This document shows, in pieces, positions 2,951 through 56,948 of a stretch of 64,000 bases of DNA. Positions within the stretch are counted from its first letter, which is position 1, and each line of letters starts with the position of its first letter. The translations under genes and the position numbers were made by a program. Under the pieces are notes generated by a model. That model searched no databases, was not told the origin of the DNA, and saw only the letters and a program-made list of their open reading frames with translations. The DNA comes from Nocardioides baekrokdamisoli (GTDB taxonomy: Bacteria > Actinomycetota > Actinomycetes > Propionibacteriales > Nocardioidaceae), in assembly GCF_003945325.1 (NCBI RefSeq), contig NZ_AP019307.1, positions 1,364,001 through 1,428,000 of the forward strand, read 5' to 3'.

Positions 2951-4393
2951 ATGCAGGTCATTCGGCTGCCGCGGCGCATCTGGGTGAGCGCTCTTGCGGT
3001 GCTCAGCGTGCTCACTATTGGAGCGACGCTGACCTACGCGAACTGGCCCGGCAGCATCACCAACGGCACCAACACGCTCCAGTCTGCGACGATCTCGTCG
3101 GCATTCAAGTACACCGGGTACTTCGGGACTGTGACCTGCAACATTGCCGCCGGTGCGAGTACGCCCACGGCGAGGTGCCCGATCGGAAGTATCTACGACA
3201 GCGCCGCGCTCCTCACCACGGGGCTGCCCAAGACCTACTCCGGACCGTCGATCACTCCGGGCGGAACCGCGACGGCCGCACAGCGAAGCACAACCGGAAC
3301 ATTTTCCGTCGCGTCCAGCTGCCCGGCGCAAGCGTTGTCCAACAGCCTTGACACCGCTGATCCGCTCCTTGCGCGTGCCGATTTCGGCCAGATCATTTTC
3401 AACACGACTGATCCATGGGCAACGACCAATGCGGTCAGCACCCAAGGGTTTTCCTACGGCTCCGGAGCGGCCCTGCAGACCTCACCCAATGCTGTCGCCG
3501 GTGGATACAGCATCGGACTGTGGTTCAAGTCCACCAACAAGGGCGGCTACATGTCGTTCGACCCCACGTCGTACAACGCCACCACGAGTTCGACCTCCTC
3601 CCCCGCCATCTGGACCGACAGCTCGGGCCACCTCGGATTCAGTCTGGCCACAACGACGGGCACTGTGACCGCGAAGTCCGCCGCGGTCATGTCGACCACC
3701 GCATGGCATTTCGTAGTGCTGTCCGTGCCCATCACTCTGGGGCTGACGGCAACCCCCACGATGTACATCGACGGGTCAGCAACGACGGTGACGCTCCCGA
3801 TTCCGGGCACGGCACTTCTGCCTTCAGGGACGTCCGGCTACTGGCACCTGAACTGGGCCAACGCACCCGGCCAAGCGACTGTCTCGGCGGGCGGCCTCAC
3901 GTCCGGGGCGTGGTACCGAGCCGCGCCAACGTCGGCCACGGAAGTCGATGCGATGCGCACGGCCGCAAACTTCGGCGCGTACCAGACGTACGTGACCGGA
4001 CGCACCGCGATGCAAAGTTTCTGGCCACTGAACGACGACGGGACCTATACCTACTCCGGCTCCATCCCGGGCGTGCCAAATCCTTGCGGGACCGTGCAGG
4101 TTGACGCCTGGGGCACCACGAATGCCGGCAACACCTGTGACTTCCTGGCGGGCATCACCCCCACGCCAGTCACCTTCGACAAGGTCCTCGGCAAGAGTTT
4201 CACCTGTGCGGTGACGGCTCCGACCGTCGCTCAGACGTTGTCGATCACGCTCCGGCGTAGCGCCTCCTGGGTAGCACCGGCACAGCAACTCAGGCTCTAC
4301 GTCCCCGTCACCTACACCACGACAAGCGCACCGGGGACCGGTTGGAGCCAGACGTTCACACTGAACTCCGCAGGCCACGTGCTGATTCCGTAG
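2951..4393 (+). CDS. Secreted LamG/concanavalin A-like surface protein
   Basis: 480 aa exported protein of unknown role. A hydrophobic signal segment spans residues about 12-30 (WVSALAVLSVLTIGATLTYA) and resembles the signal of SipW/TasA-type surface proteins. The middle (about 165-330) has the pattern of a LamG/ConA-like beta-sandwich: SIGLWFKSTNKGGYMSFD, then MYIDG. Four or more Cys residues allow disulphides. It is rich in Thr/Ser/Ala, as expected for a cell-surface or matrix protein. The ATG at 2951 has GGGGGA six bases upstream, and a TAGACT -10 element lies about 55 bp upstream, giving a leadered transcript. It is monocistronic. Ligand and partner cannot be read from sequence. Confidence 0.75.
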   Translation: MQVIRLPRRIWVSALAVLSVLTIGATLTYANWPGSITNGTNTLQSATISSAFKYTGYFGTVTCNIAAGASTPTARCPIGSIYDSAALLTTGLPKTYSGPSITPGGTATAAQRSTTGTFSVASSCPAQALSNSLDTADPLLARADFGQIIFNTTDPWATTNAVSTQGFSYGSGAALQTSPNAVAGGYSIGLWFKSTNKGGYMSFDPTSYNATTSSTSSPAIWTDSSGHLGFSLATTTGTVTAKSAAVMSTTAWHFVVLSVPITLGLTATPTMYIDGSATTVTLPIPGTALLPSGTSGYWHLNWANAPGQATVSAGGLTSGAWYRAAPTSATEVDAMRTAANFGAYQTYVTGRTAMQSFWPLNDDGTYTYSGSIPGVPNPCGTVQVDAWGTTNAGNTCDFLAGITPTPVTFDKVLGKSFTCAVTAPTVAQTLSITLRRSASWVAPAQQLRLYVPVTYTTTSAPGTGWSQTFTLNSAGHVLIP

Positions 4394-21986: not shown

Positions 21987-22415
21987 TCAAGCCTTCTTGG
22001 CAGCCGGAGCCTTCTTGGCCGGAGCCTTCTTCGCCGGAGCCTTCTTGGCGGCCGGAGCAGCCTTCTTGGCCGGAGCCTTCTTGGCGGCCGGCTTCGCCGG
22101 GGCGACCGGAGCCTCGACGACAGCCTCGGTCTTCTTGACCAGGCCGGTCACGAACGCCTTGGCGTCGAACGCCTTCGCGTCGGCGATGACCTTCTTGGTG
22201 TCAACAGCCTTCACCTGGGCAACAACGGCCTTGGCGTCGAAACCGGCGACGGCCTTGCGGGCGTCAGCGATCTGGGCCTTCACCGAGGCGAGGGTCGGGC
22301 GCTCGATCTTCGGCAGCTCCACCTTCGGGAGCTCAACCTTCGGCAGCTCGAACTTGGGCAGCTCGACCTTCGGCAGCTCGATCTTCGGCAGTTCAATCTT
22401 CGGCAGGGTAGCCAT
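21987..22415 (-). CDS. HbhA-like lysine/alanine-rich protein with LPKxE repeats
   Basis: 142 aa low-complexity protein. Residues 4-38 are seven consecutive five-residue repeats LPK(I/V/F)E. A helical middle (SVKAQIADARKAVAGFDAKAVV) leads to a tail of Ala-Ala-Lys-Lys-Ala-Pro type from about 105. The tail is the same kind as in mycobacterial HbhA, a heparin-binding surface adhesin, and also resembles histone H1-like proteins, so DNA, polyanion or surface binding are all possible. No signal peptide is seen. It is translationally coupled to the XRE regulator (TGATG), matching the Rv0474-hbhA order in mycobacteria. AAGGAG precedes the start. Confidence 0.8.
   Translation of the reverse strand: MATLPKIELPKIELPKVELPKFELPKVELPKVELPKIERPTLASVKAQIADARKAVAGFDAKAVVAQVKAVDTKKVIADAKAFDAKAFVTGLVKKTEAVVEAPVAPAKPAAKKAPAKKAAPAAKKAPAKKAPAKKAPAAKKA
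22302..22406 (-). repeat. Seven 15-bp repeats encoding LPKxE
   Basis: Seven in-frame 15-base units on the minus strand encode Leu-Pro-Lys-(Ile/Val/Phe)-Glu. High nucleotide identity between units suggests recent slippage. Confidence 0.85.
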
Positions 22416-22902: not shown

Positions 22903-23604
22903 TCAGCCCAGCATCTCCAGCAGTCGGATCGCCGCCGAATCGGCGTCGCCGCGACGGCCAGCGACAGTCACCGGAGCAGTCGCGACCGCATCGGTGACGG
23001 CGGCCAGCACCTCGTACGGTCGACGTCTGGCCGCCACCGCGTTGTCCAGCAGACGCATCGCGGCTGCGCTCCTCGAGATGGGGGCGACAGCCCAGTCGGA
23101 ACCGTCCTCGAAAGTCAGGTCGGCGATCGCGTGGATCCGGGCGGGCTCCATCACCGATGACGCACCGAGGTCGGTCGCATCCACGCGATGAAGACCCTCA
23201 GGAGTACGCATCACGAGTCTGCGCGGATACGCGTGCACCAACCCGTCCGGGGTGAGCAGCGCGTACTCGTCTGATCCGTAGGATGCTCCGTGTCGCAGCA
23301 GCGCCGCGACCAGGGAGGACTTGCCGACCCGGGACATGCCGGGAAGGAGCAGCGCGGCGCCGTTGACGGCGACGACCCCGGCATGGATGAACACCGCCTC
23401 GGTCGCATGCTCGGCGACCCAGAACTCGAGCTCATGGATCATCCCGGCGATGTCGTCACCGGGATGGATCGCCACGTGCTGCTCGGCCTCGAGTTCTTCC
23501 TCGCGCCACCAGAACGGCAGATGCTCCCGGACGTCCACATGTTCCGCGGCATAGATCGAGACCGCGCATCCGTACGCCCGCGAGCTGAGCTTCGTCCACG
23601 TCAT
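22903..23604 (-). CDS. HPr kinase/phosphorylase-like P-loop protein
   Basis: 233 aa protein related to the C-terminal kinase domain of HprK. The strand VFIHAGVVAVNGAALLLPG leads into the P-loop GMSRVGKSSL at residues 89-98, followed by ASYGSDEYALL with a metal-binding Asp. No HPr target is nearby. Related kinases occur with a PqqD-like protein and a nucleotidyltransferase in exopolysaccharide loci of other bacteria. ATG at 23604 overlaps the preceding gene by four bases (ATGA). Third gene of the operon after the Wzz/kinase-like gene and the nucleotidyltransferase. Confidence 0.82.
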   Translation of the reverse strand: MTWTKLSSRAYGCAVSIYAAEHVDVREHLPFWWREEELEAEQHVAIHPGDDIAGMIHELEFWVAEHATEAVFIHAGVVAVNGAALLLPGMSRVGKSSLVAALLRHGASYGSDEYALLTPDGLVHAYPRRLVMRTPEGLHRVDATDLGASSVMEPARIHAIADLTFEDGSDWAVAPISRSAAAMRLLDNAVAARRRPYEVLAAVTDAVATAPVTVAGRRGDADSAAIRLLEMLG

Positions 23605-24482
23605 CGGGCGCTCCGGTACGCCCGGAGAGCGCCCGGCAGGGCCGACAGGATGCGCAGCCACCGACGCACCCGAGCCCGTACGACCCCTGCCCTGCGGGCG
23701 CTGAGGTCCGGGTACGCGGCGCGGATGAAGTCGGCGGTCGGCCACACCTCGCGCAGCAGGAAGATCGGCACACCGCGCCATGGCGTCGTGGCCATCCGGT
23801 CGAGCGCGATGACCTGTGCTTCCGCATCACCCAGAGCCAGACGGGCCCGGCGGCTGAGCGGCTGCGGCGGGTCGACACCCACACGGGTGAGGGCCGCATC
23901 GAAGAGGTCAGCGGCGCCGAGGCGGACGGCGATGGCCCGAGCCTGATCCCACGCCGAGGCATCGGCGCGTGCGTACGCCAGGGTCAGGTCATCCCACCGC
24001 CGGGAGAGATCGCCACCTCCCGACAGCGCATGGAAGGCGACGGTCAGGCAACGACCGACCTCGTCGAGCGCCGGCACCTGGCCGGAGCCGAGATCGAAGT
24101 CGACGAAGTGAGGGCGAAGTTCGGCCCACAGTGAGTCGCCATCGACCGGAAGTGACGGCAGCGAACGGTGCAGGTCCACCTCGAAGCCGGAGGCGCTGCG
24201 CAGCTCGACGCTGTGCCCCCATTCGTGGGGAGCACCGACGGCGTGACCATCCGCGATTCCGCCTGCTCGCAGCGCGTCGATCGCGTCCGGCAGACGACTG
24301 GCCGGCACCAGCAGATCGACGTCGGCGTACGCCCGGGGCGGCGAGTACAACCACAGCGACGTGGTCGGGCCCTTGATGAGGACGTGCGGGATGTCCGCTC
24401 GTGCCAGACAGCGGCTGGCGTCCAGGGTCAGCAGGTCGACCCGCAGGTTGTTGGCCTGCACCTCGAGGTCGACATCAGCCAC
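23601..24482 (-). CDS. Family-5 nucleotidyltransferase
   Basis: 293 aa protein of the NTP_transf_5 group, a minimal nucleotidyltransferase fold. HVLIKGPTTSLWLYSPPRAY and then ADVDLLVPASRL carry the Gly-Ser/Thr and Asp-x-Asp features; VDLHRSLPSLP gives the third acidic residue. The C-terminal half is basic and helical. The substrate is unknown; homologues sit with HprK-like and PqqD-like proteins. GTG at 24482 overlaps the upstream gene by eight bases and has AGGAGGAGG before it. Confidence 0.8.
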   Translation of the reverse strand: MADVDLEVQANNLRVDLLTLDASRCLARADIPHVLIKGPTTSLWLYSPPRAYADVDLLVPASRLPDAIDALRAGGIADGHAVGAPHEWGHSVELRSASGFEVDLHRSLPSLPVDGDSLWAELRPHFVDFDLGSGQVPALDEVGRCLTVAFHALSGGGDLSRRWDDLTLAYARADASAWDQARAIAVRLGAADLFDAALTRVGVDPPQPLSRRARLALGDAEAQVIALDRMATTPWRGVPIFLLREVWPTADFIRAAYPDLSARRAGVVRARVRRWLRILSALPGALRAYRSAR

Positions 24483-25797
24483 GACGCCACCTCCTCCTCA
24501 CACGAGCGAGCGGCGTACGCAGGGCTGCGTCGGCCGCCGAGCCGCCGCGAGATGCGTTGGCCACGACACCGAGCACCACCGTGCCACTCCGGCTGAGCAT
24601 CTCCATCGCTGAACGCAGTCGGGCCGGCGTCACCCGCCCGATGCGCGCGACCACGATCGTCGCGTCCGCCGCCGCACAGACGACCTCTGCGGACGCGTTG
24701 CGCTCGATGTGGGGTGCGTCGATCAGGATCAGATCGACCTCGGCACCGAGGTCAGCAAGCAGGTCCGCGAAACGCGTGTCCCCGAAGAGGTCGGAGTCCT
24801 CCCGTTCGGCACGGCCGGCGACGAGCACCTTCGGTCCCACACCCGCGTCCTGGATGACCGTCCGGACGGGGAGATGTCGGTGGAGGGCCTGGGACAGCCC
24901 GACGTCGCCGCTCAGACCGTAGTGACTCGCCAACGTGGGACGGCGCAGGTCCGCCTCGACGATCAGTACGCGCCGACCCGAGGCGTGGAGGGCAGCGCCG
25001 AGATGGGTCACGACGCTGGTCCGACCCTCCCCGGCGGTCGTACTGGTGACGGCGACGACCTTCGCGCCGCTGGCCACCACGGCAGCGCGAAGGCTCCGAT
25101 GACCCTCGGCCTGCCGCCGCGAAGGCCTCGGCCCACGGGTGGGCAGAGGGAGGCGTACGCGCCGCGGGATGACCGCGAGCAGAGGTCGGCCGGTCACGGC
25201 GACCAACTGATCCCCGTCGCGAAGGCTCCGGTCCAGGACGTCGATGGCGGCGATGATCCCGAGACCGAGTGCCAGCCCGAGGGCGAGCCCGAGCTCGAGC
25301 CAGCGCTTCTTCACGGGAGAGTACGGTGCGGACGGCGGCACTGCGGGAAGCGTGACGTGCAGCGTGAGGCCCGTGTCCAGCGGGCCCACGAGATGAGCGA
25401 GCTCGGCCGGCAGGACGGCGGCGAGACCGTTTGCGACCTTCGCAGCCCGGACCGGATCCGTGTCCACCACCGCGATCGCGACCAGCGAACTGTCCCCGGA
25501 GTTGGTGACCACCTGCGGGAGCGAACCGGTCACGCCCGCGCGTTCCATTGCCTTCTGGATCACCGGCGCCTTGTCGGCCACCCCGGCCAACGCCTGGGCG
25601 CGGAAGAGGATGAGGTTGTGCGCCTCGAACTCGTCGCCGGCGGTCGTGCCTGAGTGCCCGATGGCGAGTTGCGTGATCGCCACGTATCGCGGCGTCTGTG
25701 ACTGGTAGCCCAGGACCGACAGGCCGAGCCCGAGCACCACTGCAGCGATCAGCACCCACCACAGCCGCCGGACACGACGAAGGTAGAGCGCAACCAC
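24475..25797 (-). CDS. Degenerate Wzz/BY-kinase-like protein
   Basis: 440 aa membrane protein with the arrangement of polysaccharide co-polymerases: TM1 (about 10-32), a Wzz-type extracytoplasmic domain, TM2 (about 165-190) and a cytoplasmic P-loop domain. The Walker A reads TTAGEGRTSVV, with Arg (codon at 25021-25023) in place of the catalytic Lys. Walker A' is LIVEADLRRP, and Walker B is LILIDAPHI. The C-terminus is Arg-rich and has no Tyr cluster, so autokinase activity is unlikely. GTG at 25797 has GGAGG seven bases upstream; the adjacent GTG at 25800 is an alternative. A canonical paralogue lies at 34198. First gene of a three-gene operon. Confidence 0.88.
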   Translation of the reverse strand: MVALYLRRVRRLWWVLIAAVVLGLGLSVLGYQSQTPRYVAITQLAIGHSGTTAGDEFEAHNLILFRAQALAGVADKAPVIQKAMERAGVTGSLPQVVTNSGDSSLVAIAVVDTDPVRAAKVANGLAAVLPAELAHLVGPLDTGLTLHVTLPAVPPSAPYSPVKKRWLELGLALGLALGLGIIAAIDVLDRSLRDGDQLVAVTGRPLLAVIPRRVRLPLPTRGPRPSRRQAEGHRSLRAAVVASGAKVVAVTSTTAGEGRTSVVTHLGAALHASGRRVLIVEADLRRPTLASHYGLSGDVGLSQALHRHLPVRTVIQDAGVGPKVLVAGRAEREDSDLFGDTRFADLLADLGAEVDLILIDAPHIERNASAEVVCAAADATIVVARIGRVTPARLRSAMEMLSRSGTVVLGVVANASRGGSAADAALRTPLARVRRRWRRG

Positions 25798-25886
25798 CAC
25801 GACGCCTCCGAACCGACGGGTCCGCGGGCGACTGCCGGGATCCACGGGAAGTTTACCGATCGGGTACGCACCCAAGCGGCCGCGGA

Positions 25887-25892
25887 TACAGT
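25887..25892 (+). promoter_or_regulatory. -10 element TACAGT upstream of the PqqD-glycine-rich gene
   Basis: TACAGT in the 155-bp divergent interval predicts a leader of about 55 bases before the ATG at 25953. On the opposite strand TAAACT (25850-25855) could serve the Wzz-like operon. Confidence 0.45.
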
Positions 25893-25952
25893 TCAGGCAC
25901 AGGTCTGGGCGCGGGGAGCGGCCGACTCCTGAAGACTGGGGAACGACAGACG

Positions 25953-27005
25953 ATGGCGCATGCACTCGTGACGGTCGCGGCGAAGGTCGTGAGCCGCAGG
26001 ATCGACGACTCCTATGTCGTCCTCGACGAGGGGAAGCTCGTCGCACACCATCTGACGGGCGAGGTCGCTGACGTCTGGACGGACATCCTGGCCGGCGAAC
26101 CGATTGATCTCAGTGCTCCAGCCGTGGCCGAACTCCATGCCCTCGGTCTGATCATCAGCGGCGGGATCGGGCGGCGTACCGCGCTCAAGCGCGCCGGGGT
26201 GGTGGTCGGACTCGGGATCACGTCGCTGGCCCTTCCGGAGGCTGCCGCGGCAGCCTCGGCGACCAGCCTCAACAAGGCCACCGCAGGCACGTACTGCGTC
26301 ACGGTGCCCGCCGGTCAGACGACGGCGAGTTTCACCATCACGGCCGGCGGCGGTGGCGCTGGCGGCCTGACCGGCCTGCTCGGTGGCAACGGCGGAGGCG
26401 GAGCCAAACTGTCGGGAACGATCTCCGGCCTGGTCGGCGGAGATGTCGTCGTGGTCGTCGTCGGCGCAGGCGGTTCGGGTGGCTTCGCCGCGATCGCCGG
26501 CAGCGGCGGATCCGGCTATGACTCGGGCGGCAACGGCGCCGCAGCGCTGACCGGTGGTGGCGGCGGCGGCGGTGGCGCCACGAGCATCGGCGTGGTCCGC
26601 GGCGCCGCGCCCGGAAGCTGCCCCGCGAACCAGACATGGTCGGGTGCTGCCCCCACGACGCTCGGCGTCGCCGGCGCGGGCGCCGGAGGAGGCAGCACCG
26701 GAACCCTCAACGGCGGCAACGGCGGGACGACCAACGTCGGAAGCACCGCAGCCGCCGGCCAGAACGGCAAGAACGGTGGCCTGCTCAATCTGTTCGGTGG
26801 CGGAGGCGGTGGCGGCGGTGCCGGTTCACCCGCCCCGGGTGGCGTCGGTGGCGGAGCGACCGGCGGTTCAAGCGGCTGGGCCAACGGCGGCGCCTGGACC
26901 ATCAGCGTCGTGAGCGCGACCACCGTGGCGAACGGCGGCCAGGACCTCCTCATCGGCATCGGCGGCACCGGCTCGCCGGGGGCAGGCATCGTCACCTTCC
27001 CCTAG
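25953..27005 (+). CDS. PqqD-like domain / internal Tat signal / glycine-rich exported protein
   Basis: 350 aa three-part protein. Residues 5-68 match a small PqqD-like (RiPP recognition-type) fold: SRRIDDSYVVLDEGKLVAHH, LTGEVADVWTDILAG, then AELHALGLI. Residues 72-103 form a twin-arginine signal: GRRTALKRAG, hydrophobic VVVGLGITSLALP and an AAAAASA cleavage region. From about 110 comes a beta-type glycine-rich domain (YCVTVPAGQTTASFTITAGG and many Gly runs) like those of secreted or tail-associated glycine-rich proteins. A signal located after a folded cytosolic domain is unusual. Divergent from the Wzz-like/nucleotidyltransferase/HprK-like operon, which suggests a joint function. No family name fits the whole protein. 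Confidence 0.82.
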   Translation: MAHALVTVAAKVVSRRIDDSYVVLDEGKLVAHHLTGEVADVWTDILAGEPIDLSAPAVAELHALGLIISGGIGRRTALKRAGVVVGLGITSLALPEAAAAASATSLNKATAGTYCVTVPAGQTTASFTITAGGGGAGGLTGLLGGNGGGGAKLSGTISGLVGGDVVVVVVGAGGSGGFAAIAGSGGSGYDSGGNGAAALTGGGGGGGGATSIGVVRGAAPGSCPANQTWSGAAPTTLGVAGAGAGGGSTGTLNGGNGGTTNVGSTAAAGQNGKNGGLLNLFGGGGGGGGAGSPAPGGVGGGATGGSSGWANGGAWTISVVSATTVANGGQDLLIGIGGTGSPGAGIVTFP

Positions 27006-27039: not shown

Positions 27040-28590
27040 GTGTCACTCCCCCAGTACGCCGCGTCGGCACGCGAACTCGATGAACTCGATCTGGTGGCCT
27101 CTGGCGCCCTCCCCGGACCGGTGCGATGGGCGACCGACGACGCAGCGGTGATCGACCCCGAAGGGGCACCCGTGGCCGACCTCGTGGCAGGCCGCGTGGA
27201 GAACTGGACCGGCTTCGTCCACCGCCCCTTCCACCGGCTCTACCTCACGCCCGAGCAGGCGCGCAGCGCGTACGCCGGGCGTACCTTCGTCGCGGTGTCG
27301 GCACCGCTGTCCGAAGCGCAGCTGAGGCAACTGGCACTGACCAAGGGTGCAGTCGTGCTTGCGCTCGTCGGCACCGGCACGGCGAGTGTCGCCACCATCC
27401 GTTCGGTGATCCCGGGTACGCCCGTCGTCGCGGTCCCGCTTCCGGCGGACGCTGATGCGGCCGACCGTGCCACCGTGATCGCGGCGTACACCGATGACCC
27501 GGTCGAGCTCGACGGCGCATCGGCCCCGGTCGAGGGCAATGGCGGCCTGGTCGTCTTCTTCACCGGCTTCTCCGGCAGCGGCAAGTCCACTCTCGCTCGC
27601 GCACTCGTCGACCAACTGCTCGAGTCCGGCCACACCGTGACGTCCCTCGACGGGGACATCGTCCGTCGCAACCTCAGCGCGGGCCTCACCTTCAGCCCCG
27701 AGGACCGCGAGACCAACATCCGACGCATCGGCTGGGTCGCCGCCGAGATCGCCCGCCACGGCGGAATCGCCGTCTGCAGTCCGATCGCGCCGTACGACCG
27801 CACCCGCAAGGCTGTGCGAGCGATGGTGGAGGAGGCCGGCGGCCGCTTCGTACTGATCCACGTTGCGACGCCGATCGAGGAGTGCGAGCGGCGCGACCGC
27901 AAGGGGCTGTACGCCAAGGCGCGCGCCGGCGAGATCCCCGACTTCACCGGTATCAGCGCGCCCTACGAGGAGCCAGAGGACGCGGACGTACGCATCGACA
28001 CCACCGGCCTGAGCATCGAGGAAGCCCTCGAGCCGGTGGCGGAGGCGGTACACGCCCCGACGGCGTCGACCACGGACCCCAGGGGCCCGTTGAAGGTGCT
28101 TTTCGTCTGCACGGCCAACATCTGCCGGAGCCCGTTCATGGAGCTCACCGCGCGAGCCCTCGCCCCGGAGTTGACGATCAGCAGCGCCGGTACGCACGGC
28201 TTCACGGCTGCGCCGATGGAGTCAGAGATGGCCGCCGTCCTGGCCGAGGGAATCGATCCGGGCGAGTTCCGAAGCCGGCCGTTGACCGTGGACATGCTCG
28301 CCGAGGCCGACCTGGTGCTGACGGCTCAAGCGAGCCACCGGTCCTACATCCTCGACGACCACCCGGCGTACTTCACCAAGGTGTTGACGCTGGGCCAGGC
28401 GGCCGAGGCCATCAGCAGGAGCGAGACCACGGGTCGGGCGCTGGTCGCGGAGTTGGCGCGTACGCGCGGAGCCTCGGACCCGGCTCTGGACGTCGACGAC
28501 CCGTACCGCAAGGGCCCCGTCGCCGCACGCGCAGCAGCGGACCAGATCAGTTCGCTGGTGGCTGCGATCGTGCCGAGACTCCGCGAGTAG
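27040..28590 (+). CDS. cysC: Adenylylsulfate kinase fused to LMW protein-tyrosine phosphatase
   Basis: 516 aa cytosolic fusion. Residues about 1-160 resemble a degenerate ATP-sulfurylase N-terminal region (RELDELDLVASGALPGP). Residues 168-340 are an APS kinase: Walker A GFSGSGKST (176-184), LDGDIVRRNL, RRIGWVAAEIARHGG, then KGLYAKARAGEI; it would make PAPS from APS. From 351 a low-molecular-weight phosphatase follows: VLFVCTANICRSP with C357-X5-R363 and the acid loop DVDDPY (Asp487). The two activities on one chain are rare. The start GTG is leaderless-like (GAGGAT six bases upstream). cysD lies 4.6 kb on and cysN 27 kb on. Confidence 0.88.
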   Translation: MSLPQYAASARELDELDLVASGALPGPVRWATDDAAVIDPEGAPVADLVAGRVENWTGFVHRPFHRLYLTPEQARSAYAGRTFVAVSAPLSEAQLRQLALTKGAVVLALVGTGTASVATIRSVIPGTPVVAVPLPADADAADRATVIAAYTDDPVELDGASAPVEGNGGLVVFFTGFSGSGKSTLARALVDQLLESGHTVTSLDGDIVRRNLSAGLTFSPEDRETNIRRIGWVAAEIARHGGIAVCSPIAPYDRTRKAVRAMVEEAGGRFVLIHVATPIEECERRDRKGLYAKARAGEIPDFTGISAPYEEPEDADVRIDTTGLSIEEALEPVAEAVHAPTASTTDPRGPLKVLFVCTANICRSPFMELTARALAPELTISSAGTHGFTAAPMESEMAAVLAEGIDPGEFRSRPLTVDMLAEADLVLTAQASHRSYILDDHPAYFTKVLTLGQAAEAISRSETTGRALVAELARTRGASDPALDVDDPYRKGPVAARAAADQISSLVAAIVPRLRE

Positions 28591-33197: not shown

Positions 33198-34109
33198 ATG
33201 TCTACGCCCAAGGACTATCGCCTTTCCCAGTTGGATCAGCTGGAGGCCGAGTCGATCCACATCTTCCGTGAATCCGCTGCCGAGTTCGAGCGGCCGGTAC
33301 TGATGTTCTCCGGCGGCAAGGACAGCATCGTGATGCTGCGTCTGGCCGAGAAAGCGTTCCACCCCGCCAAGATCCCCTTCCCGGTCCTCCAGGTCGACAC
33401 CGGACGCGACTTCCCCGAAGTGCTCTCCACCCGCGACAACTGGGTCAACCGACTCGGAGTCAAACTCGTCATCGCCAGTGTCGATGACGCGATCCGGGAC
33501 GGGATCGTGGTCGAGGACGGCAAGACCAGCCGCAACCGGATGCAGATCGCGACCCTGCTCCATGCGATCGAGGACAACGGGTTCACCGCCGCCTTCGGAG
33601 GCGGTCGACGCGATGAGGAAAAGGCCCGCGCGAAGGAACGGGTCTACTCCCACCGTGACGAGTTCGGCCAATGGGACCCCAAGAACCAGCGCCCCGAACT
33701 GTGGAACCTCTACAACGGGCGACTCCATGAGGGTGAGCACATGCGGGTGTTCCCGATCTCGAACTGGACCGAACTCGACATCTGGGACTACATCGGCCGC
33801 GAAGGCATCGAGATCCCCTCGATCTACTTCTCCCACCAACGCCGCGTGTTCGAACGCGACGGAATGCTGCTGTCGGAATCCGAATGGAACACCCTGCGCG
33901 ACGGGGAAACCATCCAGGAGCGGACCGTCCGGTTCCGCACCGTCGGCGACATCACGTTGACCGGATGCGTCGAATCCGGGGCCAGCACCGTCGACGACAT
34001 CATCACCGAAGTCGCCACCGCCCGCGTCACCGAACGCGGAGCCACCCGCGGCGACGACCGCTTCAGCGAAGCAGCCATGGAAGACCGCAAGAAGGAAGGC
34101 TACTTCTGA
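33198..34109 (+). CDS. cysD: Sulfate adenylyltransferase subunit 2
   Basis: 303 aa PP-loop ATP pyrophosphatase that makes APS from ATP and sulfate with the GTPase CysN. LMFSGGKDSIVMLRLAEKAF with the SGGKDS loop near residues 37-42, FGGGRRDEEKARAKER and the C-terminal TVRFRTVGDITLTGCVES are diagnostic. cysN, normally the next gene, is 21 kb away. From about codon 150 on it prefers GAA over GAG, unlike neighbouring genes and like cysN, which suggests shared foreign ancestry. Confidence 0.96.
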   Translation: MSTPKDYRLSQLDQLEAESIHIFRESAAEFERPVLMFSGGKDSIVMLRLAEKAFHPAKIPFPVLQVDTGRDFPEVLSTRDNWVNRLGVKLVIASVDDAIRDGIVVEDGKTSRNRMQIATLLHAIEDNGFTAAFGGGRRDEEKARAKERVYSHRDEFGQWDPKNQRPELWNLYNGRLHEGEHMRVFPISNWTELDIWDYIGREGIEIPSIYFSHQRRVFERDGMLLSESEWNTLRDGETIQERTVRFRTVGDITLTGCVESGASTVDDIITEVATARVTERGATRGDDRFSEAAMEDRKKEGYF

Positions 34110-34197: not shown

Positions 34198-35607
34198 TTG
34201 GACGGGATGCGCCTGCGCCGCGCGCTCGCTCGCGCTTGGTATCTGATTCTCGTCGGTGCCCTCTGCGGAGCCGCCGGCGGCTACGTCGTGTACACGAGGG
34301 CGACCCCCACCTATCAGGCCTCGGCCCAGTACGTCGTGGGGTACAGCGCCACCCGAGTCGGCCTGGACGAGACCACCCAACGCGTCCTGTCGGCCCAGCG
34401 CGCGACGACACTCATCCAGATCGCCACCACCGTTCCGGTGATCCAGGACGCGCTCAAGGCAGCCGGCCTTCCGAATGACGCGCCCACCGTCACGGCGTCC
34501 GGTGAGGACTCGAACTCGTTCCTCACGATCACTGTCACCGACACCGACCCGCAGGGCGCCGCCCAGATCGCCAACGCGTACGGCTCGATCCTGCTGCCGC
34601 AGATGGTCCGCCTGGTCGGTCCCATCGACAAGGACGTACGACTCCAGGTCGTGGCTCCCGCCGTACCGCCGCGCTCGCAGGCTTCTCCGGTCCTGGCCCA
34701 CGACCTCGGGTACGGCCTGATCGCCGGCCTGGTCCTGGGACTGCTGATCGCCCTGGCTCGCGAGATGCTGGACATGAGCGTGCGCGAGTCCGACGACGTC
34801 GTCGCGGCGTCCGGGCTCACATTGTTGGCCGCTGTGCCGTACAGCCAGCCGAAGGTCCGGCTGCCCACCGACCGCGACCCTCGCAGCATCCGCGCCGAGG
34901 CGTACCGCCAGATCCGCACCGCGATCACCAGCAGCCAGCCGACGCCGCAGGTCATTGCCGTCACCAGCGCCACCAGCGGCGAGGGCAAGACCACCGTCAC
35001 CTGCAACGTCGCCACCGCCTTCGCCCGGGCCGGTCACCGAGTCGCGGTCGTCGATGCGGACCTGCGTCGTTCCTCGGTGTCCGAGGTCATGGACGTCCCG
35101 CCGGGCCATCCCGGACTCAGCGAGATCCTGCTGGGGCGCGAGACGCTGTCCGAGACGATCCTGATGACCAACGAGGAACTCCCGGACGTCCTCCTGGCCG
35201 GCGAACCGGTCCAGGACCCCAGCGAGCATCTGGCCTCGGCGACATTCGCCGGTCTCGTGGCCGAACTGCGGACCACGTACGACTTCGTCTTCATCGACAC
35301 TCCCCCGGTCATTCCGGTCACGGACGCCTTGGTGGTGTCTCCGCTCTGCGACGCGGTGGTGATCGTGGCCCGGATCGGTTACACCACCCCCGCTCGGATC
35401 CGACGTGCGATGACCGCGCTCACCCAGGTGCGGGCAGTGACCCTGGGAGTCGTCGCGAACTGCGCACGCGGCAACGCTGATCGCGACTACCGGTACGGCT
35501 ACGCGAGCTACTACGAGCGCGGACCGAGGAAGCCCGAGGGCGACTCGACCACGGCCCCGCCGACGACGCCGGGCAAGCGCGCGAACCGCGGCAGCCACGC
35601 TCGCTGA
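34198..35607 (+). CDS. Wzz chain-length regulator / BY-type tyrosine kinase
   Basis: 469 aa polysaccharide co-polymerase with autokinase. TM1 about 13-33, Wzz periplasm-facing domain to about 165, TM2 about 172-192, then a P-loop kinase: VTSATSGEGKTTVTCNVA (Walker A with Lys near 263), VAVVDADLRR (A') and FVFIDTPPVI (B). The C-terminal tail DYRYGYASYYERG is the Tyr cluster for autophosphorylation. TTG start with GAGGGAG six bases upstream is used; an ATG three codons later is too far from it. The LMW phosphatase at 36834 is the likely counter-enzyme. Confidence 0.92.
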   Translation: MDGMRLRRALARAWYLILVGALCGAAGGYVVYTRATPTYQASAQYVVGYSATRVGLDETTQRVLSAQRATTLIQIATTVPVIQDALKAAGLPNDAPTVTASGEDSNSFLTITVTDTDPQGAAQIANAYGSILLPQMVRLVGPIDKDVRLQVVAPAVPPRSQASPVLAHDLGYGLIAGLVLGLLIALAREMLDMSVRESDDVVAASGLTLLAAVPYSQPKVRLPTDRDPRSIRAEAYRQIRTAITSSQPTPQVIAVTSATSGEGKTTVTCNVATAFARAGHRVAVVDADLRRSSVSEVMDVPPGHPGLSEILLGRETLSETILMTNEELPDVLLAGEPVQDPSEHLASATFAGLVAELRTTYDFVFIDTPPVIPVTDALVVSPLCDAVVIVARIGYTTPARIRRAMTALTQVRAVTLGVVANCARGNADRDYRYGYASYYERGPRKPEGDSTTAPPTTPGKRANRGSHAR

Positions 35608-36833: not shown

Positions 36834-37433
36834 GTGCTCAGCCGAAAGACCCTTGTTGCGGGTCAGCCACGACGTGGCGCCGATGACGCTGCCGTCCAGA
36901 TTCTGGTGGTCTGCACGGGCAACATCTGCCGCTCTCCGTACGTGGCAGCGCTCCTCCAGCGGGCGCTCCCGGATGCACGCGTGACATCGGCCGGCACAGC
37001 CGCCATGGTCGGGCGACAGCCGGTGGTGCCCGTGGCCGACGTCCTCGCCGACCTGGGCGCGGGTACGTCCGCACCAGCCCGGCAACTGCGCCGATCGATG
37101 GTGCGCCGCGCCGACGTCATCGTGGCGATGACGCACACCCAGCGCGCCACCGTGGTCCAGATCGTGCCGAAGTCCGGCGCACGAACTTTCACGCTCAAGG
37201 AACTGGCCCGGACGGCCGCGCACCTCACACCACCGGGCGACGACCTCCGCACCAGCCTGACCGCACTGCTGGCTCGCACCGCTCTCGACGTGGGTGCGTC
37301 CGCACGCGATCACGACGACGATCTCGACGATCCGTACGGGGGTCCCCCCGAGGGGTACGTCCGGATGATGAGCGAGGCCGACCTGGCCGTGGGCGCCATC
37401 GTTGCCGCGCTGCGGGCGGAGACCCTTCGGTGA
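36834..37433 (+). CDS. Low-molecular-weight protein-tyrosine phosphatase
   Basis: 199 aa cytosolic phosphatase. ILVVCTGNICRSPYVAALL carries C27-X5-R33, and DLDDPYGGP near 165 gives the acid loop. A 20-residue N-terminal extension precedes the fold; GTG at 36834 is the only in-frame start seen. Ends with a four-base overlap on the polymerase gene. Expected to dephosphorylate the BY-kinase tail and so control polymer length. Confidence 0.9.
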   Translation: MLSRKTLVAGQPRRGADDAAVQILVVCTGNICRSPYVAALLQRALPDARVTSAGTAAMVGRQPVVPVADVLADLGAGTSAPARQLRRSMVRRADVIVAMTHTQRATVVQIVPKSGARTFTLKELARTAAHLTPPGDDLRTSLTALLARTALDVGASARDHDDDLDDPYGGPPEGYVRMMSEADLAVGAIVAALRAETLR

Positions 37434-55682: not shown

Positions 55683-56948
55683 GTGCCCGAGACCAAGCGC
55701 CACATGGACCTGCTGCGATTCGCGACCGCTGGTTCGGTGGATGACGGGAAGTCGACCCTGATCGGTCGCCTGCTCTACGACAGCAAAGCAATCTTCGAAG
55801 ACCAGTTGGACGCCGTGGAACGGACCTCCGAAGCCAAAGGCCACGGCTACGTCGACCTGTCCCTGCTCACCGACGGACTCCGCAGCGAACGCGAACAAGG
55901 CATCACCATCGACGTGGCCTACCGCTACTTCGCCACCCCCAACCGCAAATTCATCATCGCCGACACCCCCGGCCACGTGCAGTACACCCGCAACATGGTC
56001 ACCGGCGCCTCCACCGCCGACCTCGGTTTGATCCTCGTCGACGCCCGCCACGGCCTCACCGAACAATCCCGCCGCCACGCCGTGCTGCTGTCCCTGCTCC
56101 GAGTGCCCCACTTCGTCCTGGCGATCAACAAAATGGACCTCGTCGACTACTCCGAAGACGTCTACCGGGGCATCCTCGAAGAATTCACCACCTTCGCCAC
56201 CAAACTCGACGTCCCCGACCTCGAAATCATCCCCATCTCCGCACTCCAGGGCGACAACGTCGTGGACCGGTCAGTCAACATGGACTGGTACAAGGGCCCC
56301 ACCCTGATGCACCACCTCGAACACGTCCACGTCGCCTCCGACCGCGACTACCGCGACGTCCGGTTCCCCGTCCAATACGTCATCCGCCCCAAATCCGACC
56401 AACACCACGACTACCGCGGCTACGGCGGCACCGTCGCCGGCGGCGTCCTGAAACCCGGCGACGAAATCGTGGTCCTGCCCTCCGGGATGACCACCACCAT
56501 CGAAGCCATCGACCTCTTCGGTGAAGAACTCGACGCCGCCTACCCACCGATGTCCGTCACCATCCGCCTTAAGGACGACGTCGACGTGTCCCGCGGCGAC
56601 ATGATCGCCCGGATCCACAACGCCCCCGTCCCCAAACAAGACATCGACGCCATGATCTGCTGGATGTCCACCACCCCCCTACAACCCCGCCAGAAACTGG
56701 CCATCAAACACACCACCCGCACCGCCCGGGCCCTGGTGAAGGACATTCAGTACCGGCTCGACGTCAACACCCTGCACCGCGACCCCGACGCCACCACCCT
56801 CAGCCTCAACGAAATCGGCCGCATCCACCTCCGCACCACCACCCCCCTACTCGCCGACGTCTACGCCCAAAACCGCACCACCGGCTCCTTCATCCTCATC
56901 GACGAAGCCACCGGCATCACCGTCGGCGCCGGCATGATCAACAACTGA
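55683..56948 (+). CDS. cysN: Sulfate adenylyltransferase subunit 1 (GTPase)
   Basis: 421 aa regulatory GTPase of ATP sulfurylase. AGSVDDGKSTLIGRLLYDSK (P-loop), REQGITIDVAYRYF, DTPGHVQYTRNMVTGAS and NKMDLVDYS are intact; the APS kinase domain often fused at the C-terminus is absent. GTG at 55683 is leaderless and gives the family N-terminus. Codon use is foreign to the window: GAA and AAA dominate over GAG and AAG after the first 30 codons. Confidence 0.97.
   Translation: MPETKRHMDLLRFATAGSVDDGKSTLIGRLLYDSKAIFEDQLDAVERTSEAKGHGYVDLSLLTDGLRSEREQGITIDVAYRYFATPNRKFIIADTPGHVQYTRNMVTGASTADLGLILVDARHGLTEQSRRHAVLLSLLRVPHFVLAINKMDLVDYSEDVYRGILEEFTTFATKLDVPDLEIIPISALQGDNVVDRSVNMDWYKGPTLMHHLEHVHVASDRDYRDVRFPVQYVIRPKSDQHHDYRGYGGTVAGGVLKPGDEIVVLPSGMTTTIEAIDLFGEELDAAYPPMSVTIRLKDDVDVSRGDMIARIHNAPVPKQDIDAMICWMSTTPLQPRQKLAIKHTTRTARALVKDIQYRLDVNTLHRDPDATTLSLNEIGRIHLRTTTPLLADVYAQNRTTGSFILIDEATGITVGAGMINN

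Follow-up and report, generated by a model that had tools for sequence, protein, structure and literature searches.

The window analysed here is a stretch of 64,000 nucleotides of Nocardioides baekrokdamisoli (NZ_AP019307.1, positions 1,364,001 to 1,428,000), whose genome is a single contig of 2.97 Mb. On its forward strand lies a gene with a good coding signal (25953–27005, in window coordinates as throughout) for a protein of 350 residues, P0001. Residues 4–72 (25962–26168) are an RRE/PqqD-like domain by predicted fold, residues 73–101 (26169–26255) an internal Tat-type signal, and residues 110–350 (26280–27002) a region recognised by its glycine-rich composition, which has no Pfam match, is predicted to be exported and is modelled with low confidence. 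An earlier note on this DNA had read the N-terminus as PqqD-like and proposed a structure prediction, which bears this out: residues 1–73 fold confidently on their own from the single sequence and their best structural matches are RREs. The available parts of PMC12710340 define an RRE as a winged helix with the order bbb-aaa; the P0001 model is bbb-a-a and has two helices, not three, one being replaced by a loop. The sequence score of the domain is weak, P0001 has no PF05402 match over the cut-off and the window genome has none at E <= 0.05. The same note had placed an internal Tat signal ahead of a glycine-rich region, and here the sequence agrees in the twin arginines (R74-R75), the hydrophobic core (residues 81–95), an AxA-type site (AAAAA|S) and the glycine composition. 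Compared with 90 Tat signals described below, the signal (GRRTALKRAG...LPEAAAAA) has no W/YxxP; the Ser after AAAAA is retained.

Opposite P0001, on the reverse strand, is a three-gene operon, and profile searches and alignments agree with the three assignments made for it in that note. The first protein (24475–25800) is Wzz/BY-kinase-like with a broken Walker A, GEGRT (K to R), in which the Lys of active BY-kinases is absent; a window paralogue and three relatives have G[ED]GK[TS]. The window has two such Wzz-BYK paralogues, the intact Walker A being in that at 34207–35607 (forward strand). The second protein (23601–24482) is an NTP_transf_5 nucleotidyltransferase (PF14907, 48.8 bits against a cut-off of 31.2) with the KG and DxD columns kept. 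It shares 28% identity across 274 alignment columns with the nucleotidyltransferase of locus L106 in a relative, which lies directly behind a PqqD gene and a Tat-signal gene. The third (22903–23604) is an HprK-like kinase of 233 residues with its His, GKS and SDE kept; columns H111, K134 and D150 (numbering of the alignment's first row), the His, Walker Lys and Asp of HprK-like Ser kinases, are all present. This kinase is divergent, with an E-value of 3.7e-8 to our HprK model A2 that falls within the range of background matches. Its best named family is NCBIfam HprK_rel_A (TIGR04352; E 1.8e-14, 53.6 bits, below the 200-bit cut-off), from which it differs in being shorter and divergent.

GalE-like, sugar transferase, rhamnose, glycosyltransferase and the second Wzz-BYK genes surround P0001, and we therefore take the site to be a polysaccharide locus; the window profile scan covered 18 of the 58 called proteins, the remaining names being given by eye. 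Directly downstream of P0001 is a fusion of APS kinase (PF01583) and low molecular weight protein phosphatase (PF01451) at 27040–28590 (forward strand). Together with CysD-like (33198–34109) and CysN-like (55683–56948) genes, both named by eye, the APS kinase suggests a sulfated polysaccharide. An incomplete phosphatase-like gene is present at 37005–37433 (forward strand; PF01451 1.7e-6, profile 44–111). The gene at 21987–22415 (reverse strand), which adjoins an HTH gene, encodes a protein of 142 residues that contains KIELPK-type repeats and has a tail rich in Lys, Ala and Pro.

How are these genes arranged where no fusion is present? Among 46 gene-called loci (45 from the genus and one from the order, some sharing a genome and many picked for an NTase or PqqD match), HprK-like, PqqD and NTase genes were all tagged in 16, and 15 of these 16 also have a Wzz-BYK gene. 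In six loci a Tat-signal gene, a putative client of the set, lies within or against it. The orders are HprK, PqqD, Tat, NTase, Tat (L105); HprK, PqqD, Tat, NTase (L095 and L106); HprK, Tat, PqqD, NTase (L089); HprK, PqqD, Tat (L102); and PqqD, HprK, PqqD followed by a short Tat gene in the opposite orientation (L101). By the TypA tree the genome of L105 stands close to that of the window (TypA 89% identical), and the L105 locus shares with the window an epimerase, a sugar transferase, RmlA, RmlB, RmlC/D, a mannose isomerase cupin and an HTH gene; the window counterparts were named by eye, the HTH by profile search. In L105 the PqqD and Tat proteins are separate genes, whereas in the window they are one. 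A second set of 22 related loci (adding Marmoricola, Microbacterium, Agreia and others; L140 is from the same genome as L095) contains at least one Tat gene of the client type in nine cases, judged by eye (L139, L140, L143, L146, L148, L149, L150, L151 and L158). A commoner arrangement has PqqD fused C-terminally to HprK (L015, L016, L080–L083 and others), the reverse kind of fusion to that in P0001; no Tat gene of the six-locus kind was seen in the stretches of L015, L016, L080 and others of this type.

The signals of the clients have a feature of their own. A Tat-signal model (A3) was built from the signals of ten clients, and WxxPx[LIVFAM] is present in 81 of the 90 distinct signals from the fetched loci, which is not a free count because A3 favours W and P. 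In 76 of 78 signals W lies 16 residues before the end of the P-x-x-A site, placing the motif residues at W-16, P-13 and [ILV]-11. Position 2 of the predicted mature protein is Ser in 65 of 81 signals (the other nine, in which no P-x-x-A site was found, were left aside), compared with about 10% Ser at most later positions. By comparison, 30 ordinary Tat signals of the genus (PF10518 matches) include two with aromatic-x-x-P, both times outside the hydrophobic core, and 2 of 27 have Ser at +2 by a crude site finder that takes the first A-x-A-like triplet. Clients are about 100–940 residues long counted from RR, with up to 14 A3 matches per genome among the matches listed. The window genome has no A3 match at E <= 0.01 among the matches listed, and the glycine-rich passenger of P0001 was matched to no passenger of the separate clients.

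Could the RRE-like domain instead be a cytosolic anchor or scaffold? In that case P0001 would be an uncleaved type II membrane protein whose domain recruits the kinase, NTase and Wzz protein to another membrane target, such as a polysaccharide intermediate. The internal position of the signal suits this, since an uncleaved protein would retain its RRE within the cell while exposing the glycine-rich region, and so do the polysaccharide locus around the operon and its Wzz-like partner. However, the separate clients beside the module in relatives have N-terminal signals with clear AxA sites, and P0001 retains its Ala-rich site, so that we consider such an anchor unlikely.

Is the link between HprK and the WxxP-type Tat signals more than local? 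With strict cut-offs, which were picked after seeing the tables (A2 E <= 1e-10, A3 E <= 1e-5), 31 of 98 genus genomes have HprK and 31 have the Tat signal; 30 have both and 66 neither (30/1/1/66; Fisher 7e-23). The two exceptions are a genome with Tat only (G064) and one with HprK only (G069), whose Tat match of 5.9e-4 is 2.3 kb away. Without the four genus genomes that supplied signals to A3 the table becomes 26/1/1/66 (Fisher 7e-21). At search thresholds (A2 1e-5, A3 0.01), 32 genomes have both, 11 HprK only, 5 Tat only and 50 neither, among the matches listed, and the window genome is one of the 11. A PF14907 match (E <= 0.001) was found in all 31 strong-HprK genomes versus 24 of the 67 others. 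Both traits are patchy on a tree built from the TypA of 95 genomes (G031 and G076 have no TypA match and G004 only a fragment). Parsimony counts 16 and 17 changes, and a model of dependent change is favoured over independence by an LR of 90.7, a rough value from one gene tree with rates at their bounds. Among the Tat matches listed on the contig of HprK, one lies within 5 kb of it in 12 of the 31 genomes, counting G069, and within 40 kb in 23 of 31. The association extends to 296 class genomes, of which 18 have HprK (E <= 1e-10), 15 Tat (E <= 1e-5) and 11 both (Fisher 1e-12); tighter cut-offs set afterwards (1e-40, 1e-6) give 12, 11 and 11. The class genomes with both include four that also belong to the genus sample, and G193, G407, G481 and G517 have both beyond the genus. 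The strict class exception (G581, locus L195) has three Tat genes about 3–8 kb from HprK in which AxAVPAI replaces AWxxPAI. In several relatives (G017, G030, G096 and G084) a WxxP Tat gene adjoins TypA; in the window an exported-looking protein of 480 residues without a Pfam match (2951–4393, forward strand) lies beside a TypA-like gene (770–2659).

The motif and the enzymes have counterparts in peptide biosynthesis. According to the available parts of PMC8498205, PMC7533575, PMC9266682, PMC10368454, PMC12710340 and PMC13381572, taken jointly, HprK-like kinases of lasso clusters phosphorylate a Ser, the PqqD-like B1 raises the activity of the kinase BsfK, and RREs read [Y/W]xxPx[L/V/I/F/A]. 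These sources also describe PsmN as adding hexoses to the phosphate or possibly being a nucleotidyltransferase, a phosphate and then a hexose being reported for pseudomycoidin; phosphorylation in one lasso system was unaffected when the motif's Y or L was changed. Paeninodin-type/Bsf clusters, as described there, thus share with our loci the PqqD-like protein, HprK-like kinase, nucleotidyltransferase and leader motif, but act on short peptides, whereas here whole proteins with Tat signals are concerned. Another close system is that of the linear polyphosphorylated peptides (LPP), for which the accessible text of PMC13381572 describes a discrete RRE, an HprK-like kinase, an NTP transferase and capsule loci. 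There LppB is contacted by Y-16, P-13 and V-11 of the leader, and Ser3 of the core AQS is the residue that LppK phosphorylates; the clients have the mark at the same distance and the Ser one residue earlier. LPP differs in its leader peptidase, which is SipW-like, and in its MsbA-like transporter and, with paeninodins, is called restricted to Bacillota by its authors (same text), whereas in our loci a Tat signal forms the leader and the hosts are Actinomycetes. Neither these two components nor a lasso macrolactam cyclase or B2 peptidase was found among the 18 scanned proteins of the window's 58 or the 20 flanking proteins of L105, L095 and L139. The DUF2063-associated RREs with DUF2282 precursors, in the available parts of PMC12710340, likewise combine an RRE with an export-signal precursor, but use Sec rather than Tat, and no specific RRE-read motif is reported there. 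The words Tat and twin-arginine are absent from the accessible text of PMC13381572, and no Tat-RRE system was found in the literature searched.

We propose that this locus represents a protein-tagging module of actinomycetes in fused form, with the Tat signal serving as leader, a reading to which we give a probability of roughly 0.55. Computation supplies the fold, the gene sets, the motif with its spacing and the co-occurrence, while binding, the phosphorylated residue, the NTase chemistry, export and the tie to polysaccharide are predicted. In the unfused form, the small PqqD-like RRE would bind the Tat signal of a client through WxxPx[ILV] (W-16, P-13, [ILV]-11) and present the Ser at mature position 2 to the HprK-like Ser kinase. 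The family-5 NTase would then put a nucleotide or a sugar on the phosphate, and Tat would carry the protein, by then folded and tagged, to the surface on which exopolysaccharide is made. Tat carries folded, already modified proteins, which makes it suited to tagging before export. In the window the RRE would be joined in cis to P0001, the one client found; with the RRE tethered, the mark in the signal would no longer be needed, hence its absence from P0001. The general form of the proposal stands at about even odds in our view: that in Actinomycetes a Tat signal doubles as a RiPP-type leader, with a PqqD-like RRE reading the motif in its core and the two enzymes tagging Ser2 of a set of exported proteins ahead of Tat, the window being a natural cis fusion lacking the mark. 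The earlier note had seen the domain as a handle through which the kinase and NTase mark or check the protein before its export to the capsule. The domain itself stands and the relatives tie HprK-like, NTase and PqqD genes to Tat-signal proteins, so that the idea fits; marking, Tat export and capsule delivery are predictions of it. The note's expectation that homologues lie near HprK-like and NTase genes holds for the unfused counterpart, no homologue of P0001 having been found. The comparison with relatives also sharpens that reading, as their putative RRE mark sits within the Tat signal and is absent where the RRE is fused.

The association between HprK and WxxP Tat signals could also be real with the RRE serving to control export, retaining clients until folding is complete or the polysaccharide system is ready, while the kinase and NTase have different substrates. 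The motif is in the hydrophobic core, where binding would mask the signal from the translocon, and the up to 14 clients per genome are in many genomes 24–38 kb or further from HprK (among the matches listed). Against such a role stand the enrichment of Ser at +2 and the available lasso and LPP descriptions, in which the HprK-like kinase shares its substrate with the RRE; we therefore think it doubtful and keep tagging as the preferred reading.

Does the fusion occur elsewhere? Residues 1–115 of P0001 found only P0001 itself among 5.8 billion proteins in a word-limited search with candidates of 0.55–1.75 times its length. P0001 has weak matches in five of the 98 genus genomes besides its own; four of these cover the glycine-rich part only (residues 191–342) and were set aside, and a 709-residue frame of G001 (L018) is unrelated. 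Of 341 family genomes, 19 have a match, the own genome included; a search of all frames shows the matches outside the own genome to be unrelated proteins or antisense-like frames, and in none does a Tat signal follow an RRE. Likewise, 117 PqqD domain matches include none that runs on into a Tat-like signal, the extension of a flagged PqqD (L102) being an Ala/Gly tail, and the 90 Tat frames show no significant match to PqqD. A Tat protein of 672 residues beside HprK in Knoellia (L154), which we take to be PhoX-like, has an N-terminus that by eye is not RRE-like. The fusion is known from one sequence. That P0001 is an accidental or decaying fusion, with a chance open start before an ordinary Tat protein and a two-helix RRE remnant, would suit this single copy, the weak sequence score and the neighbour's broken Walker A, but is very improbable given the confident fold of residues 1–73 alone with RREs as best match, the good coding signal and the motifs kept in NTase and HprK.

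If the tagging reading is true, RiPP-style leader recognition would extend from small peptides to whole exported proteins, leader and Tat signal would be merged into one element, and the unexplained HprK-like/PqqD/NTase gene sets of polysaccharide loci would gain a testable role. The data hint that RRE-guided tagging of surface proteins ahead of export may be a way not described so far. The signal motif offers a ready list of candidate clients and the window fusion a test case in one protein. Among the candidates is a tandem cluster of large Tat WxxP proteins (L178; G085:C10:246000-256460), of which the one scanned, with 1039 residues, has RCC1 repeats.
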